From the NCBI RefSeq assembly GCF_028657195.3, contig NZ_JANCPR020000009.1, forward strand, positions 124,001 through 188,000: a stretch of DNA of 64,000 bases, given 5' to 3'. The position numbers and the translations under genes were made by a program. This DNA comes from Streptomyces iconiensis (GTDB taxonomy: Bacteria; Actinomycetota; Actinomycetes; Streptomycetales; Streptomycetaceae). The number at the start of each line of letters is the position of its first letter. Position 1 is the stretch's first letter. Of the stretch, positions 53,865 to 61,800 are shown piece by piece. Below the pieces are notes generated by a model. That model saw only the letters and a program-made list of their open reading frames with translations. It was not told the DNA's origin and made no database searches.

Positions 53865-55226
53865 TCACAGACCGGAGAGGGCGTCCTCCAGGACGTCGAG
53901 GCCCTCGTTGAGGAGTTCCTCGCCGATCACCAGCGGGGGCAGGAAACGTACGACGTTGCTGTAGGTGCCGGTGGTCAGGACGAGGAGTCCCTTCTGGTGG
54001 CACGCCTTGGCGAGCGCGGCGGTGGCCTCCGGGTTGGGCTCCTTGCCGCCGCCCGGCTTGACCAGTTCGATCGCGAGCATCGCGCCCCGGCCGCGCACGT
54101 CCCCGATGATGTCCGACTGGGCCGCCATCTTCTCCAGACGCGGCTTCATGACCTCTTCGATGCGACGGGCCTTGGCGGGCAGATCCAGCTCGCGCATGGT
54201 CTCGATGGCGCCGAGCGCGGCGGCGCAGGCCACAGGGTTGCCCCCGTAGGTGCCGCCCAGGCCGCCGGAGTGCGCGGCGTCCATGATGTCGGCGCGGCCG
54301 GTGACGGCGGCGAGCGGCAGGCCGCCCGCGATGCCCTTCGCCGTAGTGATCAGGTCCGGCACGATGCCCTCGTCCTCGCAGGCGAACCACTGGCCCGTGC
54401 GGCAGAAGCCGGACTGGATCTCGTCGGCGACGAAAACGATGCCGTTCTCGCGGGCGAACTCCTGGATGCGGGGCAGGAAGCCGCGTGCCGGGACGATGAA
54501 ACCGCCCTCACCCAGGACCGGTTCGATGACGATGGCGGCGACGTTGTCGGGGCCGATCTGCTTGGTGATCTGGTCGATGGCCTGGGCCGCGGCCTCTTCG
54601 GCGCAGTTGTCGGGGCCGGTCAGCCAGCGGTAGGGGTAGGCCACCGGGACGCGGTACACCTCGGGCGCGAACGGGCCGAAGCTGTGCTTGTACGGCATGT
54701 TCTTGGAGGTGAGGGCCATCGTCAGGTTCGTACGTCCGTGGTAGCCGTGGTCGAAGACGACGACGGCCTGGCGGCCGGTGTGCGCACGCGCGACCTTGAC
54801 GGCGTTCTCCACCGCCTCAGCCCCGGAGTTGAACAGTGCGCTCTTCTTGGCGTGGTCGCCCGGGGTGACCTTGGCCAGTTCTTCGCAGACCTCTACGTAG
54901 GGCTCGTAGGGAGTGACCATCACACAGGTGTGCGTGAAGTCGTTGAGCTGCTGTGTCGCGCGGCGGACCACGGCCTCGGCGCTGTTGCCCACGGAGGTCA
55001 CGGCGATGCCGGAGCCGAAGTCGATGAACGAGTTCCCGTCCACGTCCTCCAGCACCCCGCCGCCGGCGCGGCGTGCGAAGACCGGCATCACGGTGCCGAT
55101 GCCGCTCGCGACGGTCGCCTGCTTGCGGGCCATCAGCTCCTGCGACTTGGGCCCGGGGATGGCGGTGACGACGCGCCGCTCCTGGGGGAGGGTGGGGCCT
55201 CCGGAGAGTTCAGTCATTGCGGTCAT
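53865..55226 (-). CDS. gabT: 4-aminobutyrate transaminase
   Basis: A 453-residue class III aminotransferase that moves the amino group of GABA to 2-oxoglutarate, giving succinic semialdehyde and glutamate. The cofactor Lys is K297 in ITTAKGIAGGLP; FNSGAEAVENAVK, FDHGYHGRTNLTM, IEPVLGEGG and VADEIQSGFCRTG are all typical of GabT. ATG at 55226 has GAGGAG six bases upstream. It is divergent from the P-loop ATPase gene. The aldehyde dehydrogenase at 60346 could oxidise its product. Confidence 0.94.
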   Translation of the reverse strand: MTAMTELSGGPTLPQERRVVTAIPGPKSQELMARKQATVASGIGTVMPVFARRAGGGVLEDVDGNSFIDFGSGIAVTSVGNSAEAVVRRATQQLNDFTHTCVMVTPYEPYVEVCEELAKVTPGDHAKKSALFNSGAEAVENAVKVARAHTGRQAVVVFDHGYHGRTNLTMALTSKNMPYKHSFGPFAPEVYRVPVAYPYRWLTGPDNCAEEAAAQAIDQITKQIGPDNVAAIVIEPVLGEGGFIVPARGFLPRIQEFARENGIVFVADEIQSGFCRTGQWFACEDEGIVPDLITTAKGIAGGLPLAAVTGRADIMDAAHSGGLGGTYGGNPVACAAALGAIETMRELDLPAKARRIEEVMKPRLEKMAAQSDIIGDVRGRGAMLAIELVKPGGGKEPNPEATAALAKACHQKGLLVLTTGTYSNVVRFLPPLVIGEELLNEGLDVLEDALSGL

Positions 55227-55577: not shown

Positions 55578-58145
55578 ATGGACATGGGGCTTCCCCACAG
55601 GAAGCAGGGTACGGGCGGCGCGTACGACCCTCATGGCACGGGCCGGGGCTCCGTGCCGGGGCCCCGTGAGGACGCGGCCCCCTCAGGCTCGCCGCACCCC
55701 TCTGACCCCACACCCCCGCCGCACCAGCCTCCGCCCGGCCCGCCCGCCCCGGACGCCCGGCCCACTCCGGCGGCCCCATCGGTCCCCCCCAACACGGCGA
55801 TCCCCTCAAACCCAGCGATCCCTCCGACCATAGCGACCCCGCCCGCACCGGCAACCCCGCCGAGCTGGATGGCCCAGCCGGACCGGGACACACCCGGCCA
55901 GGACCCGGCACCCCGCACACACCCCGCAACCCCTCCCGTCACACCTCCCCCCGCCGCACCGACGCCCGTGACACCCCTGCCCGCCGCCACGCCCCCGCCA
56001 CCTGTGCCTCCACCAGCGATGCCGCCGTCCCATGGCCACCCCGCACCCGGCGTGGAGGCGGTGCCTCCGCCCATGCCTTCCGGAGCTCCCGAGTCCGGGC
56101 CGCCTCTGGCCGACTGGTTGCGGCTGCCGCGCCCGGAGGCCCTGCCCGGGGTGTGGCGTTGCGCGCACGAACCCCGTTCGCCAGAGGACCCCGAACGCAT
56201 TCCCGCACGCCAGCTCATCAGCGGTGCGGTCGTTTCCTTCCTCATCGGCTGGCTGCTGTGGTCCCTGCTGTGGAACGGATACCTGGGCAGCTTCTGGCTC
56301 TGGCCGCTCTTCGCCATGACCCCCGACGCGGTCGGCACGGGAGCCCGCACCTTCATTTCGTACGGGTACTACACGCTGGTCGGAGTGGTGCTGATCGTGC
56401 TCTTCGGGCGGATCGGCCGCTGGGACGAGTTGGGCCGCCGGATCCTTGGGCGCCTGCGCGGCGGCAAGCGCAAGAGGGGCAGCGGCGAAGCGGATGTGAG
56501 CGCCCCGCACCGCCCAGCGAAGCCCGTGCCGCAGCCTCCGCCGCACCTCGACCCTGTGGAGTGGCCCGAACTGCGCAGCGGTGGCGCGGCCGAGGCGGCC
56601 GACAGGCTTGCCGCCGAGCTGCGCTCCGGCCGGATGACCGACGTCGACCACGCCCGTATCGAACGGGCCTGGAAGTCCGTGCGGACGCGCCCGCAGCGAC
56701 TGGCCTCGTTCATCGAGAGCGTGCGCGCCAAGGGGGCCGCAGCCTGCGGACACCCCTCGGGCGCCCGCGACCTGCCGCTTCGCGCGGCCCGGCACGATCT
56801 CTCCCTGCGCCAGGTCCGTATCGGCACGGCGGCCGACGCCGAGCGCAATCCTCATGAGTACCGCGGCGCCGGGATCGCGCTCGACCCCTCCCTGCTGGGC
56901 ACGTCGGCGCTCGCCGTGGGACCGCCGGGTACGGGGAAGAGCAGCAGGCTCGCGCGCCCCGTTGTCGAGTCGCTGTGCCTTCAGGCGCTCGCGGGCCAGG
57001 CGTCGGTGCTCGCGGTCAGCCCTTCCGGGGCACGGTTCGTGCCCGATGAGTCCTTCGATGTCGTGATCCGGCTCGGCCATCCCGACTCCACCCACGACCT
57101 CGACCTGTACGGCGGCACCAGCGACCCCGACGAGGCGGCCGGGATGCTGGCCGAGGCCCTTGTCGGAGACCTCGCAGCGAACCTGCCCGGGGGCGACAGC
57201 CGCCGTGCCGCGACCTGCCTGGCGCAGCTCATCGGCCCGTTCGCGGCCGTGCATGGCTGCTTCCCCGCCGTTCCGGAGCTGAGGGAGCTGCTGGACGGCA
57301 CTCCGGCAGCGTTCGACCAGCTGAGGGAGAAGCTCCAGGAGGCGGGCCAGGGGGCGCAGCTGCGCGAACTGGACGCCTACGAACGCCAGTCGGGCCGCAC
57401 CGGCGACATAGCGGCGCTGCTCGGCGACCGGCTCGCGTTGCTGGACCGCCCCGCCTTCGCCGACTTCTTCCAGCCCGAGGGCGGCCCGGCACGCGCGGGG
57501 GCCCGTCGGGCGTTCTCACCCCGTGCGATGGAGCATCCGGTGCGGGTGCGTATCGACCTGCCCGAGAGAGCGCACGCTGAGGCGTCCCGGATCCTCGCGC
57601 GCCTCATACTCGCGCAGTTCACGGAGTGCGCCGCCGGCCGTGGTGATCAGTCGCTGTTCGCCTGTCTGGTCCTGGACGACGCCGCACAGACGATCACGCC
57701 CCAGGCGCTACGGGGCCTCCAGCGGCTGCGCTCGGCGCACGCCGGGGTGCTGCTCACGCTGCGTGCTCTGGACGATGTGCCCGAGCCGCTCAGAGGGCCG
57801 CTGCTGGGCGCCGTCGGCTGTCGCATGGTGTGTGCGGGTGTCACGCCCTGGGACGCGGAACGGTTCGCTGAGGTGTGGGGGACAGAGTGGGTGCAGACGC
57901 GTACGGTCACCAACCGGCAGCTCGTCTCGGACGAGCCCGTCACCCGCATCCTGCACGCCGTACGGCGCCTGGCCACCGGGAAATACGTCACGGCCGAATC
58001 GGTCACTGTCCGTAGCGAGCAGCGGGAGCGCTGGTCGGCCTCCGACCTGGCCAACGAGCTGCAGCCCGAACACGCGGTGCTCTCTCTGACCACCGTGCGA
58101 GGGGAGCGCACACCCCCGATCCTGACGAAGCTGGGGACAGACTAG
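55578..58145 (+). CDS. Membrane-anchored P-loop ATPase, VirD4/TraG-like layout
   Basis: An 855-residue protein. Residues 1-185 are a Pro-rich disordered region (PxTPP and APATPP units). Two membrane segments follow at about 210-245 and 255-277, then a cytoplasmic ATPase with Walker A GPPGTGKSS (448-456) and a Walker B-like LFACLVLDDAAQ near residue 692, plus LLTLRALDDVPEPLRG. This topology is like VirD4/TraG coupling ATPases, but no relaxase or secretion genes are nearby. From memory, a similar ATP/GTP-binding protein sits next to gabT in other streptomycetes. Function unknown. ATG at 55578 follows a purine-rich AGGGAGCAGAGG. Confidence 0.85.
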   Translation: MDMGLPHRKQGTGGAYDPHGTGRGSVPGPREDAAPSGSPHPSDPTPPPHQPPPGPPAPDARPTPAAPSVPPNTAIPSNPAIPPTIATPPAPATPPSWMAQPDRDTPGQDPAPRTHPATPPVTPPPAAPTPVTPLPAATPPPPVPPPAMPPSHGHPAPGVEAVPPPMPSGAPESGPPLADWLRLPRPEALPGVWRCAHEPRSPEDPERIPARQLISGAVVSFLIGWLLWSLLWNGYLGSFWLWPLFAMTPDAVGTGARTFISYGYYTLVGVVLIVLFGRIGRWDELGRRILGRLRGGKRKRGSGEADVSAPHRPAKPVPQPPPHLDPVEWPELRSGGAAEAADRLAAELRSGRMTDVDHARIERAWKSVRTRPQRLASFIESVRAKGAAACGHPSGARDLPLRAARHDLSLRQVRIGTAADAERNPHEYRGAGIALDPSLLGTSALAVGPPGTGKSSRLARPVVESLCLQALAGQASVLAVSPSGARFVPDESFDVVIRLGHPDSTHDLDLYGGTSDPDEAAGMLAEALVGDLAANLPGGDSRRAATCLAQLIGPFAAVHGCFPAVPELRELLDGTPAAFDQLREKLQEAGQGAQLRELDAYERQSGRTGDIAALLGDRLALLDRPAFADFFQPEGGPARAGARRAFSPRAMEHPVRVRIDLPERAHAEASRILARLILAQFTECAAGRGDQSLFACLVLDDAAQTITPQALRGLQRLRSAHAGVLLTLRALDDVPEPLRGPLLGAVGCRMVCAGVTPWDAERFAEVWGTEWVQTRTVTNRQLVSDEPVTRILHAVRRLATGKYVTAESVTVRSEQRERWSASDLANELQPEHAVLSLTTVRGERTPPILTKLGTD

Positions 58146-58190
58146 GAGAATGACCGATTTCGGGTGGACGCCTGTACGGTGAGGTGCGTT

Positions 58191-60101
58191 ATGCCACCGA
58201 CTCTTGCCGCGCTTGTTCAGCACTCCGCACTCCGGCTCTCTGTGCTCGCGGGGCACGACCGGTTGGACGCGCCCGTCCGCTGGGCGCACTCCAGCGAGCT
58301 GGCGGACCCCACGCCGTACATGGACGGTGGTGAGCTGATCCTCTTCACCGCGCTCAAGCTGGACGCGCAGGACCCCGAGGCCATGCGCGCCTACGTGGAC
58401 AAGCTGGTGGAGAAGGACGTCGTCGGGCTCGGTTTCGCGGCCGGGGTCAACTACGACGGGGTCCCCGAAGCGCTGGTGGAGGCGTGCAAGAGCGCCCGGC
58501 TGCCCCTTCTGGAGGTGCCACGGCGCACCCCCTTCATCGCGATCAGCAAGGCGGTCTCCGCCGCCATCGCCGCGGAGCAGTACCGCGCGGTGACGGCCGG
58601 GTTCGACGCGCAGCGCGAGATGACCCGCGCCGCGCTCTCCCGCGAGGGCCCCGCCGCGCTGCTCGCGCGGCTGGCCTCCCAGGTGGACGGCTGGGCGGCG
58701 CTGTACGACGTCTCCGGTGCCGTCGTCGCCACGGCGCCGACCTGGGCGGTACGCAGGGCCTCGCGCTTCATCGGCGACGCCGAGAGGCTGCGGGACAGAC
58801 AGGCGCCGGCCAGTGCCGTCGTGAGCGAGTCGGACAGTGGCGACGACCGCGTCGAGCTGCAGTCGATCGGGAGCGGCAGACGCGCCAAGGCGATCCTCGC
58901 TGTCGGCACGGCAGCGCCCCTGGGCACGGCCGAGCGGTACGCCGTGCATTCGGCCATCGCGCTGCTGACCCTCACCATGGAGCGTTCGCGCGCGCTTCAG
59001 GAGGCCGAACAGCGGCTGGGCGCAGCCGTGTTGAAGATGCTGCTCGTCGGAGAGGGCGACCACGCACGCGCGGTGGCCGGTCAGCTCTACGGCGGGCTGC
59101 TGGACGCGCCGATGCGGGTGATCGCCGCGGAACCGGCGTCGGGCACGGTCGCCCGGCTCGCCCAGGCAGGCGCCGCCGGCACCGCGGGGCCCGGAGTCGC
59201 ACACCTGAGCCCCACCCTGGGCACGACTGGCATGCCCGGGAGCGGAGCGGGAGCGGGCGCCGGGAGCGGCACCCGGGGCGCGAGCAGAGGCAAGGGCAGG
59301 AGCGGAGCCGGAAGCAGGAACGGAACGCGGGCATCCGCCGCCAAGGGCACCGGTTCAGCCGGGGCACAGGGCAGTACTGAGCCCACAGTGGAAGCCAGCG
59401 ACATGAGCACGGCCGGGATCGTGGTCGGCTCGGGCAGCGGCCCGCAGGCCGACCCCGCCGATGCCGCGGCGCTCGGCCAGATCGTATGGCCACTCGAAGA
59501 GCTGTCCGACGCTGTGGAGACGGCCGCGGCCCGCAACGGCGAGGCGGTGCTCGTGGTGCCCGACGGCGCGCGGCTCATCGTGCTCGCTTCGGACGGCGGT
59601 GCGGCGGTGGCGGCGTGCGCGGAGTTCGCCGCGACGGCGACGGCGGCGCAGCCGGGACAGCGGGGCACCGGAGCGGCGGACGAAGGGCTCGCCATCGGCA
59701 TCTCGGCGCCCGCGGGGCTCCCCGCGGCTGCGATCGCCTACAAGCAGGCCGACCAGGCGCTGTCCGTCGCCAGGCGACGCGGGGTGCCGCTCGTGGAGCA
59801 CGAGGACGTGGCGGCGGGTTCCGTGCTCCCGCTGCTGGCGGACGACGCCGTACGTGCTTTCGCCGACGGACTGCTGCGGGCTCTGCATGAGCACGATGCG
59901 AACGGGCGTGGCGACCTCGTGGCCTCGTTGCGTGCCTGGCTGTCCCGGCACGGCCAGTGGGACGCCGCCGCGGCCGAACTGGGCGTGCACCGGCACACGT
60001 TGCGGTACCGCATGCGCCGGGTCGAGGAGATTCTGGGCCGTTCCCTGGACGACCCCGATGTCCGTATGGAGCTGTGGCTGGCGCTCAAGGCCACGAGCTG
60101 A
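58191..60101 (+). CDS. PucR family transcriptional regulator
   Basis: A 636-residue regulator. The N-terminal PucR ligand domain (residues 1-120: LRLSVLAGHDRLDAPVRWAHSS-type start, DGGELILFTALKL) is followed by a GGDEF-like middle region and a C-terminal PucR helix-turn-helix (WLSRHGQWDAAAAELGVHRHTL, RYRMRRVEEILGRSLDD). Residues about 347-405 are a Gly/Ser/Ala/Arg-rich low-complexity insertion. ATG at 58191 gives the standard N-terminus. Members control purine, amine or GABA use; its place before an aldehyde dehydrogenase and near gabT suggests control of GABA catabolism. Confidence 0.92.
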   Translation: MPPTLAALVQHSALRLSVLAGHDRLDAPVRWAHSSELADPTPYMDGGELILFTALKLDAQDPEAMRAYVDKLVEKDVVGLGFAAGVNYDGVPEALVEACKSARLPLLEVPRRTPFIAISKAVSAAIAAEQYRAVTAGFDAQREMTRAALSREGPAALLARLASQVDGWAALYDVSGAVVATAPTWAVRRASRFIGDAERLRDRQAPASAVVSESDSGDDRVELQSIGSGRRAKAILAVGTAAPLGTAERYAVHSAIALLTLTMERSRALQEAEQRLGAAVLKMLLVGEGDHARAVAGQLYGGLLDAPMRVIAAEPASGTVARLAQAGAAGTAGPGVAHLSPTLGTTGMPGSGAGAGAGSGTRGASRGKGRSGAGSRNGTRASAAKGTGSAGAQGSTEPTVEASDMSTAGIVVGSGSGPQADPADAAALGQIVWPLEELSDAVETAAARNGEAVLVVPDGARLIVLASDGGAAVAACAEFAATATAAQPGQRGTGAADEGLAIGISAPAGLPAAAIAYKQADQALSVARRRGVPLVEHEDVAAGSVLPLLADDAVRAFADGLLRALHEHDANGRGDLVASLRAWLSRHGQWDAAAAELGVHRHTLRYRMRRVEEILGRSLDDPDVRMELWLALKATS

Positions 60102-60345: not shown

Positions 60346-61800
60346 TTGACGACAGCGACTTCCCCTCACGCATTCTGGCTCGCCGGCCGTCAGGCCACGG
60401 GCGACACCACGCTCGATGTCACCTCGCCCTGGGACGGCAGGCACGTCGGCAGCGTCAGCATTCCCACGGCCGAGCAGGTCGAGGAGGCCGTGGCAGCCGC
60501 TGCGGCGGTCACCGACGCGTTCTCGGCGGCGCCCGCGCATGTACGGGCCGCGGCGCTCGACCATGTGGTCACCCGCCTCGGTGAGCGTACGGAGGAGATC
60601 GCCGAGCTGATCTCGGCCGAGAACGGCAAGCCCATGAAGTGGGCGCGTGGCGAGGTCGGCCGCTGTGTCTCGGTCTTCCGCTGGGCGGCCGAGGAGGCCC
60701 GCAGGTTCAACGGCGGTGAGGCGCAGCGCCTGGACTCGGACGCGGGCGGCACGGGCCGTCTCGCCTACACCCGCCGCTTCCCCTATGGCCCGGTGCTCGG
60801 GATCGCGCCGTTCAACTTCCCGCTCAACCTGTGCGCGCACAAGGTCGCTCCGGCCATCGCCGTCGGCACTCCGATCATTCTGAAGCCGGCGCCCGCGACG
60901 CCGCTGTCGGCGCTGCTGCTGGGTGAGCTGCTGGCGGAGACGGACCTTCCGGCCGGTTCCTGGTCGGTGCTCCCGGTCCCCAACGACCAGATGCCGTCGC
61001 TGGTCCAGGACAAGCGGCTGCCGATCATCTCCTTCACCGGTTCGGCGCCGGTCGGCTGGTCGATCCTGGACTCCGTCCCGCGCAAGCGGGTCACCCTGGA
61101 GCTGGGCGGCAACGGTGCGGCCGTCGTGCTGGCCGACTACTCCTCCGAGGCGGACCTCGACTGGGCGGCCCAGCGCATCGCCACCTTCTCCAACTACCAG
61201 GCGGGGCAGTCCTGCATCTCGGTGCAGCGCGTCGTCGCTGACGCGTCCGTCTACGACCGGCTGGTGCCCAAGATCGTCGCCGCCGTCGAGTCGTTGGCGA
61301 CGGGTGACCCGTCCGACGAGGCCACCGACGTCGGTCCGCTGGTGAGCGAGGACGCGGCACGCCGCGTCGAGTCCTGGGTGGAGGAGGCTGTCTCACGCGG
61401 CGCGAAGCTGCTCACGGGCGGCAAGCGCGAGGGCGCGACGTACGCGCCGACCGTGCTGGAGGCCGTGCCGGCCGATACCCAGATCGGCTGCGAAGAGGTC
61501 TTCGGCCCCGTCATGTCGTTGGTGAAGGTGGAGGGGGAGGAGGCCGCGTTCGCCGCGGTCAACGACTCCAAGTACGGCCTCCAGGCGGGGCTGTTCACGC
61601 ACGACGTGCAGACGGCGTTCCGCGCGCACCGTTCGCTGGAGGTGGGCGGCGTCGTGGTCGGCGACGTTCCCTCCTACCGTGCCGACCAGATGCCCTACGG
61701 CGGCATCAAGGACTCCGGCGTGGGCCGCGAGGGCGTGCGGTTCGCGATGGAGGACTACACGTACGAGCGCGTCATGGTCCTCACGGGACTGGCCCTCTGA
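60346..61800 (+). CDS. Aldehyde dehydrogenase, candidate succinic semialdehyde dehydrogenase
   Basis: A 484-residue NAD(P)-dependent aldehyde dehydrogenase. Catalytic Cys290 lies in NYQAGQSCISVQR, Glu252 in VTLELGGNGA, and the cofactor blocks are IAPFNFPLNL and SFTGSAPVGW. It belongs to a branch distinct from the two other dehydrogenases in the window (AGQSC rather than GQDCTAA). The start is TTG at 60346 with GGAAGGG upstream. Being downstream of gabT-linked genes and a PucR regulator it may oxidise succinic semialdehyde, but lactaldehyde or other aldehydes cannot be excluded. Confidence 0.88.
   Translation: MTTATSPHAFWLAGRQATGDTTLDVTSPWDGRHVGSVSIPTAEQVEEAVAAAAAVTDAFSAAPAHVRAAALDHVVTRLGERTEEIAELISAENGKPMKWARGEVGRCVSVFRWAAEEARRFNGGEAQRLDSDAGGTGRLAYTRRFPYGPVLGIAPFNFPLNLCAHKVAPAIAVGTPIILKPAPATPLSALLLGELLAETDLPAGSWSVLPVPNDQMPSLVQDKRLPIISFTGSAPVGWSILDSVPRKRVTLELGGNGAAVVLADYSSEADLDWAAQRIATFSNYQAGQSCISVQRVVADASVYDRLVPKIVAAVESLATGDPSDEATDVGPLVSEDAARRVESWVEEAVSRGAKLLTGGKREGATYAPTVLEAVPADTQIGCEEVFGPVMSLVKVEGEEAAFAAVNDSKYGLQAGLFTHDVQTAFRAHRSLEVGGVVVGDVPSYRADQMPYGGIKDSGVGREGVRFAMEDYTYERVMVLTGLAL

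Follow-up and report, generated by a model that had tools for sequence, protein, structure and literature searches.

A VirD4-like membrane ATPase at a conserved GABA locus of Streptomyces and its probable partnership with a distant gene cluster required for normal sporulation

A described system with a role in sporulation is that encoded by the cmdABCDEF cluster of Streptomyces coelicolor. Deletion of cmdB or of the whole cluster was reported to impair chromosome segregation and sporulation, deletion of cmdA made no apparent difference to sporulation, and transfer of an SLP2-derived plasmid was unchanged in a mutant of the cluster (PMC2782261). The text of PMC2782261 contains none of the terms VirD4, coupling and SCO5677. 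The last of these is the gene for what has been termed an ATP/GTP-binding membrane protein, insertions in which increase actinorhodin production, as do mutations in cmdBCDEF and tgdA; all of these genes were given a role in aerial hyphae (PMC6585502). Mutants with raised actinorhodin were numerous in that screen (404 insertions), and SCO5677 is absent from the complementation plasmids tabulated in the paper. No further work on SCO5677 was found in the literature searched.

Here, we followed up an earlier note on a 64,000-nucleotide stretch of the Streptomyces iconiensis genome (contig NZ_JANCPR020000009.1, positions 124,001 to 188,000; hereafter the window), which singled out a gene for a putative membrane ATPase. 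By gene order alone, this gene is the equivalent of S. coelicolor SCO5677, lying between the equivalents of SCO5676 (GabT) and SCO5679 (dehydrogenase); SCO5678 would then be the PucR-type regulator. The earlier note had suggested that the system might be undescribed, which does not hold given the transposon phenotypes already published for SCO5677 (PMC6585502, seen in part).

The ATPase and its conserved locus

The reading frame on the forward strand starts with an ATG at 55578, comprises 855 codons, ends at 58145 and has a G+C content of 85% at third codon positions. A chance frame was excluded because a single scan of genome contigs returned 47 related loci, every one from Streptomycetaceae by title. 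The features of the gene and its neighbours are as follows, the neighbour gene names being our reading of the translations.

53865..55226, - strand: GabT-like aminotransferase, conserved neighbour, SCO5676 equivalent (translation; neighbour probes; PMC8998196, seen in part)
55578..58145, + strand: VirD4-like membrane ATPase, 855 aa, SCO5677 equivalent by gene order
55578..56102, + strand: Pro-rich N-terminal region, residues 1-175, 35% Pro
56205..56273, + strand: first membrane helix, residues 210-232 (helix in the model; hydropathy)
56337..56414, + strand: second membrane helix, residues 254-279, with a basic segment after it (model; hydropathy)
56565..56744, + strand: conserved helical linker preceding the motor domain, residues 330-389 (model helices; invariant W, D, D and R columns in alignment A3)
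56919..56942, + strand: Walker A, GPPGTGKS (sequence)
57126..57443, + strand: six-helix stretch between the Walker motifs, residues 517-622, located where coupling proteins have their all-alpha domain and possibly equivalent to it (model)
57666..57683, + strand: Walker B, LVLDDA (sequence)
58164..60101, + strand: PucR/CdaR-type regulator directly downstream, conserved neighbour (start possibly the ATG at 58191)
60346..61800, + strand: aldehyde dehydrogenase, conserved neighbour, SCO5679 equivalent (translation; neighbour probes; PMC8998196, seen in part)

The protein was said in the earlier note to combine a proline-rich region, two membrane helices and a P-loop domain, and its composition, hydropathy and Walker motifs agree with this. 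Proline falls from 35% in the first 175 residues to 7.5% elsewhere, and hydropathy peaks at residues ~208-236 and ~256-285, which together with the predicted model places two membrane helices ahead of the motor domain. Residues 280-320 contain 11 Lys/Arg against 4 Asp/Glu; Walker A begins at residue 448 and Walker B at residue 697.

The surroundings of the gene are strongly conserved. Probes made from the neighbouring genes in the window detected GabT upstream in 39 of 40 loci with sequence on that side, the PucR-type regulator downstream in 46/47, and the aldehyde dehydrogenase in 42/47. Of the five loci without the dehydrogenase, four lie on contigs that stop short, while L031 has none of the three neighbours. 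DNA of the ATPase gene was present in 21/21 Streptomyces genomes and in 55 of 61 genomes (16 of 17 genera) drawn across Streptomycetaceae, the latter being a lower bound, as DNA matching is weakened by divergence. These and all further genome counts rest on DNA or family-profile matches, and the chromosomes surveyed are those of Streptomycetaceae. The conservation in streptomycetes that the earlier note had surmised is thus borne out, and its remark that no secretion genes are near holds for the two families searched: profile matches to VirB4-type ATPases (AAA_10) or to TraG-D_C were absent from the window's contig, the only ones in this genome lying on other contigs.

Direct searches did not place the protein in any curated family. 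It matched no profile in Pfam or NCBIfam, including FtsK_SpoIIIE (PF01580) and the HerA domain DUF87 (PF01935) at E-values up to 10, and nothing significant in PADLOC (weak mads_8 match, E 0.029). Among 39 aligned relatives, the best Pfam E-value was 0.0013 (AAA_22). Sequence searches of the PDB with the protein and two profiles yielded nothing significant; the A3 profile gave three matches, with DotL on top (E 0.25). An AlphaFold model of a 680-residue core was of fair quality (pLDDT 74.3, pTM 0.69), and its top Foldseek match was TrwB, the coupling protein of R388 (E 6.9e-10). TrwB likewise ranked first in VIA comparisons (Z 27.1, 367 residues, 3.4 A), followed by the C-domain of DndH (Z 24.1, 330 residues, 3.6 A), DotL (Z 22.9, 325 residues, 3.3 A), VirB4 (Z 22.6, 329 residues, 4.1 A), HerA (Z 20.0, 306 residues, 4.4 A) and FtsK (Z 15.9, 219 residues, 3.1 A). 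The HerA/DndH and FtsK readings were rated below that of a coupling protein.

A further connection came from a plasmid of Saccharothrix, which encodes a relative with 39% identity across 74% of the query. This relative passes the Pfam profiles TraG-D_C (31.8, cut-off 22) and TrwB_AAD_bind (24.2, cut-off 20.5), and a relative from a Nocardiopsis plasmid passes the latter. In both plasmids, the ATPase gene lies directly 3' of a gene for an M48 metalloprotease (L048:10663-13370, L049:13898-16512), and the probes used found no Cmd-like genes beside these relatives outside Streptomyces. Predicted fold and bridging relative together support assignment of the window protein as a VirD4/TraG-like membrane ATPase, in agreement with the resemblance to conjugation coupling proteins pointed out earlier. 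In the profile check proposed at the time, the window protein matched neither the coupling nor the FtsK/HerA families directly; its Saccharothrix and Nocardiopsis relatives pass coupling-protein profiles. The protein is called VirD4-like here and not filed in the curated coupling-protein families because it lacks a direct profile match.

Displaced copies and their gene partners

Among 72,556 plasmid records searched with tblastn, nine contained a match to the ATPase: L055, a replicon of 2.8 Mb in which the genes are ordered as on the chromosome, a 47-residue fragment, two plasmids from other genera, and five Streptomyces plasmids (L050-L054). Together with the non-syntenic copies L031 and L104/L117, the latter five make up seven displaced copies in Streptomyces. 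The five plasmid copies did not match the coupling-protein profiles. A scan of viral contigs returned 207 pattern stretches and no relative of the ATPase.

CmdD-like or VirB4-like genes lie beside six of the seven displaced copies. A gene 47-51% identical to P0004, the CmdD of the S. iconiensis genome (see below), was found within ~4 kb of five of them, the distance to the ATPase being 65-315 bases in L050-L053 and ~4 kb in L031; none was found near L054 or L104 in the stretches read. VirB4-like genes occur within ~4.3 kb in five of the seven (L031, L050, L052, L053, L054), and the L051 plasmid has a weaker VirB4-like gene ~40 kb from its ATPase. Three VirB4-like proteins were scanned with AAA_10, from L050, L053 and L054, and only the last passes. 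These VirB4-like genes are not close to CmdB, which as a probe gave no match there at E 1e-3. In Streptomyces sp. NBS 14/10 (L031:6088-13122), a dead ATPase, two small genes, a VirB4-like gene and a CmdD-like gene form a compact run on one strand. In the plasmid of strain NBC_01525, genes for a Tad-type pilus lie a few kb upstream of the ATPase copy (L051:7732-16890).

The converse association is looser. CmdD-like genes were found on 26 plasmids, 22 of which lack the ATPase. Four of the latter were read: L082 and L114 contain VirB4-like genes, and no VirB4 or coupling gene was detected in L080 and L083 by the probes used. A 712-aa protein encoded upstream of the CmdD-like module in a plasmid of S. 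olivoreticuli gave no match to the ATPase profile at E 0.01. The chance of the 26 CmdD-like and the five ATPase plasmids sharing four was calculated at 0.014 for a pool of 103 and 7e-6 for a pool of 700; these pools are assumed, the plasmids are not all independent, and adjacency was not counted.

A tree of 63 ATPases placed the displaced copies at three positions among the chromosomal ones. L031, L050, L051, L052 and L104 group together (100/95), next to the group of the window (99/90), with L051 on a long branch; L053 joins the S. spinoverrucosus group (95/88), and L054 falls beside Streptantibioticus (100/100). Judged from this nesting of sequences, the host gene would have been captured at least three times. 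The tree omits the broken or truncated L043, L044, L046 and L092 and the window's duplicate L084, and was thinned by ten rows (L003, L004, L006, L007, L022, L024, L027, L028, L030, L037); alignment A1 omits the broken L043, L044 and L046 and was thinned by the intact L003, L004, L006, L007, L030 and L037. The mobile CmdD-like copies also cluster together in their tree.

The Walker A signature GK[ST] was present in 70 of 75 readable ATPase copies (77 examined, 18 of them taken regardless of synteny), the window included. It was absent only from L031, L050, L051, L052 and L104, which are five of the seven displaced copies. Pairing with CmdD can therefore do without ATPase activity. The dead copies seem to be maintained, given a dN/dS among them of 0.27, compared with 0.13 and 0.22 for two chromosomal pairs, and the displaced copies without Walker A may be host-derived mimics. 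In the chromosomal copy L105, the first Walker B Asp is replaced. One genome (L117 / G016:C28) combines a syntenic ATPase in which the first Walker B Asp is replaced with a displaced copy lacking Walker A.

The chromosomal cmd cluster and the decay of CmdA

Each of the 21 Streptomyces genomes contained one frame of the CmdB kind (AAA_10 profile positions 14-290), and three of them had a second AAA_10 match. CmdB of S. iconiensis (P0002, 476 aa) passes both AAA_10 and P-loop_TraG, and is accompanied by P0003, the polytopic P0004, P0005, and P0006 in the place of CmdA. P0003 passes SCO6880_fam and so corresponds to CmdC. P0004 scored far below the cut-off of SCO6881_fam; we name it CmdD because of its position and the resemblances given in PMC2782261. 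Its predicted model (pLDDT 59, pTM 0.34) is too poor for a fold search, so that likening CmdD to VirB6 is an analogy. In L067, the cluster has a transglycosylase gene ~1 kb away, a homologue of the one in a plasmid cmd-like operon, and none was found in the 16 kb read around the S. iconiensis cluster. In the nine genomes with both genes on one contig, the ATPase and CmdB are at least 1.5 Mb apart.

The plasmid pMDJK44.2 has genes, in order, for a transglycosylase, a P0005-like, a P0004-like, a CmdC-like and a CmdB-like protein, a small gene, and a coupling protein with TraM recognition. CmdA occupies the last slot, that of the coupling protein. Over 280 columns starting just past Walker A, the CmdA profile aligned with the coupling protein of pMDJK44.2 (probability 99.6, E 2e-24), and in all 11 aligned CmdA sequences Walker A is absent and the protein ends early; L068 and L072, with split or short CmdA frames, were omitted from this alignment. 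CmdA of S. iconiensis (L064:3652-5229, - strand) ends already at Walker B. TraG-D_C matches beside CmdB covered only the first 48-50 of 126 positions in 7/21 genomes. From its sequence, CmdA looks like a decayed coupling protein that has lost its Walker A motif and been cut short at the C end. It was also considered as a second copy of the ATPase family, which was rejected, as the two profiles do not align. The ATPase profile itself aligned with the pMDJK44.2 coupling protein over only 24-25 columns around the P-loop (probability 25 and 34).

Nine of the 21 Streptomyces genomes, S. iconiensis included, gave a full-length match to TraG-D_C; none was found in the other twelve, all of which have CmdB and the ATPase. 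S. iconiensis also contains a second cmd-like cluster (L120, G000:C92), comprising a transglycosylase, P0004-like, CmdC-like and CmdB-like genes and a coupling protein in the order of pMDJK44.2; this coupling protein is full-length and the cluster's own. SCO6880-family proteins occurred in 61/61 genomes of the family, counting CmdC and its paralogs together. One of these genomes (G037) has ten SCO6880_fam matches, corresponding to many cmd-like clusters or fragments. With both loci so widespread in the family, their co-occurrence does not discriminate between explanations.

A candidate motor for a proposed split secretion-like machine

We give an even chance to the window protein serving in sporulation as the VirD4-type ATPase of a type IV secretion-like machine that has been domesticated and split, and consider that it probably works with the distant cluster. 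The protein would be a divergent coupling ATPase of the VirD4/TraG type, anchored by two membrane helices and with a cytoplasmic motor domain, and would act as the coupling motor of a machine whose genes are split across the chromosome. The remaining parts would be the VirB4-like CmdB, the SCO6880-family CmdC, the polytopic CmdD and others, along with the transglycosylase TgdA. With Cmd's own coupling protein CmdA decayed, the SCO5677-type ATPase would drive the complex, an assignment proposed because it is the simplest cover for the fold, the decayed CmdA, the common mutant phenotype and the plasmid pairing. Such a machine would move or position DNA or protein at the membrane as aerial hyphae divide into spores. 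We infer the physical partnership with Cmd, the ATP-driven translocation and the substrate alike; a role as a DNA or protein pump is plausible, and DNA would be favoured only because cmd mutants mis-segregate their chromosomes in the literature. The sporulation role suggested in the earlier note is in keeping with the published SCO5677 phenotypes, which fit a role in aerial development (PMC6585502, seen in part).

Several observations count against this proposal. Neither the window protein nor any of the five plasmid copies in Streptomyces matches a curated profile, the ATPase and a recognised coupling protein align at the P-loop only, 22 plasmids have CmdD-like genes without the ATPase, and the folds of DndH, DotL and VirB4 score highly as well. 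To these are added the loss of Walker A from five displaced copies, the replaced Walker B Asp of L105, the family-wide spread of both loci, and the chance that SCO5677 insertions act through the regulator downstream. A rather unlikely alternative is that the ATPase has nothing to do with Cmd and acts by itself or with unknown partners, the common phenotype reflecting a general disturbance of the envelope, as suggested in PMC6585502 (seen in part). The distance to cmdB, the many mutants that raise actinorhodin in that screen, and the relatives outside Streptomyces, which adjoin a metalloprotease gene and showed no Cmd-like gene with the probes used, would all suit this alternative. It leaves aside the partners of six of the seven displaced copies, however, and the decay of CmdA, which leaves the cmd cluster without an intact coupling protein.

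Less likely still is a membrane ATPase for the use of GABA or polyamines or its regulation, with the published phenotype resulting from loss of the adjoining PucR-type regulator. The conserved order of GabT, ATPase, PucR and dehydrogenase speaks for this, as does the regulator, which begins 18 or 45 bases past the ATPase stop codon; the effects of SCO5677 insertions could be polar on it. On the other hand, the predicted fold is VirD4-like, and the displaced copies accompany CmdD-like and VirB4-like genes instead of GABA genes. We consider it very unlikely that the protein is a host factor for the spread or exclusion of plasmids in the mycelium, with secondary effects on development: displaced copies do reside on Streptomyces plasmids with VirB4-like genes, but transfer of the SLP2-derived plasmid was unchanged in the cmd cluster mutant, and conservation of the gene on chromosomes extends far beyond any plasmid. 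That the protein is a HerA/DndH-like defence ATPase, hinted at by the Z scores of DndH and HerA and the weak mads_8 match, is the most improbable reading in view of the two membrane helices, the higher score of TrwB, the bridging relative that passes coupling-protein profiles, and the conserved chromosomal neighbours, among which no nuclease was seen.

If the ATPase is indeed the motor of a split Cmd machine, the resemblance among mutants in SCO5677, cmd and tgdA would be accounted for, the cmd complex would gain the coupling motor that it lacks, and CmdA would have to be seen as a coupling protein in decay. Whether sporulating Streptomyces use a conjugation-derived channel in handling their chromosomes would also become testable. 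To judge from the plasmid copies, the host machine may be a target of mobile elements. In a bolder and doubtful version, the Cmd channel and the motor from the GABA locus move DNA in sporulation, and plasmids have repeatedly captured the motor, in one lineage with its Walker A disabled, and placed it alongside a CmdD homolog and a VirB4-like ATPase, the dead copy hijacking or blocking the host machine for plasmid spread.

Compared with known systems, the window protein is like the VirD4/TraG/TrwB coupling proteins (PF12696, PF10412, PF02534) in its predicted motor fold, its two N-terminal membrane helices, and its Walker A and B motifs with a helical stretch between them. It differs from them in lacking a direct profile match and known adjoining relaxase or transfer genes, in its additional helical linker before the motor and 175-residue Pro-rich head, and in the fixed place of its gene in a metabolic locus. 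The DNA motors FtsK/SpoIIIE and HerA share a related RecA-like motor fold, but the window protein lacks their profiles and scores lower against them than against TrwB. For SCO5677 itself, the text of PMC6585502 consulted offers neither a mechanism nor kinship to coupling proteins. With CmdABCDEF (PMC2782261), the ATPase has in common the class of mutant phenotype (PMC6585502, seen in part) and the CmdD-like genes that adjoin its displaced copies, whereas its gene lies outside the cmd cluster, CmdB is VirB4-like, and CmdA belongs to another branch of coupling proteins. What is new here is the link between the SCO5677-type ATPase and Cmd, a chromosomal cluster that contains a VirB4-type gene.
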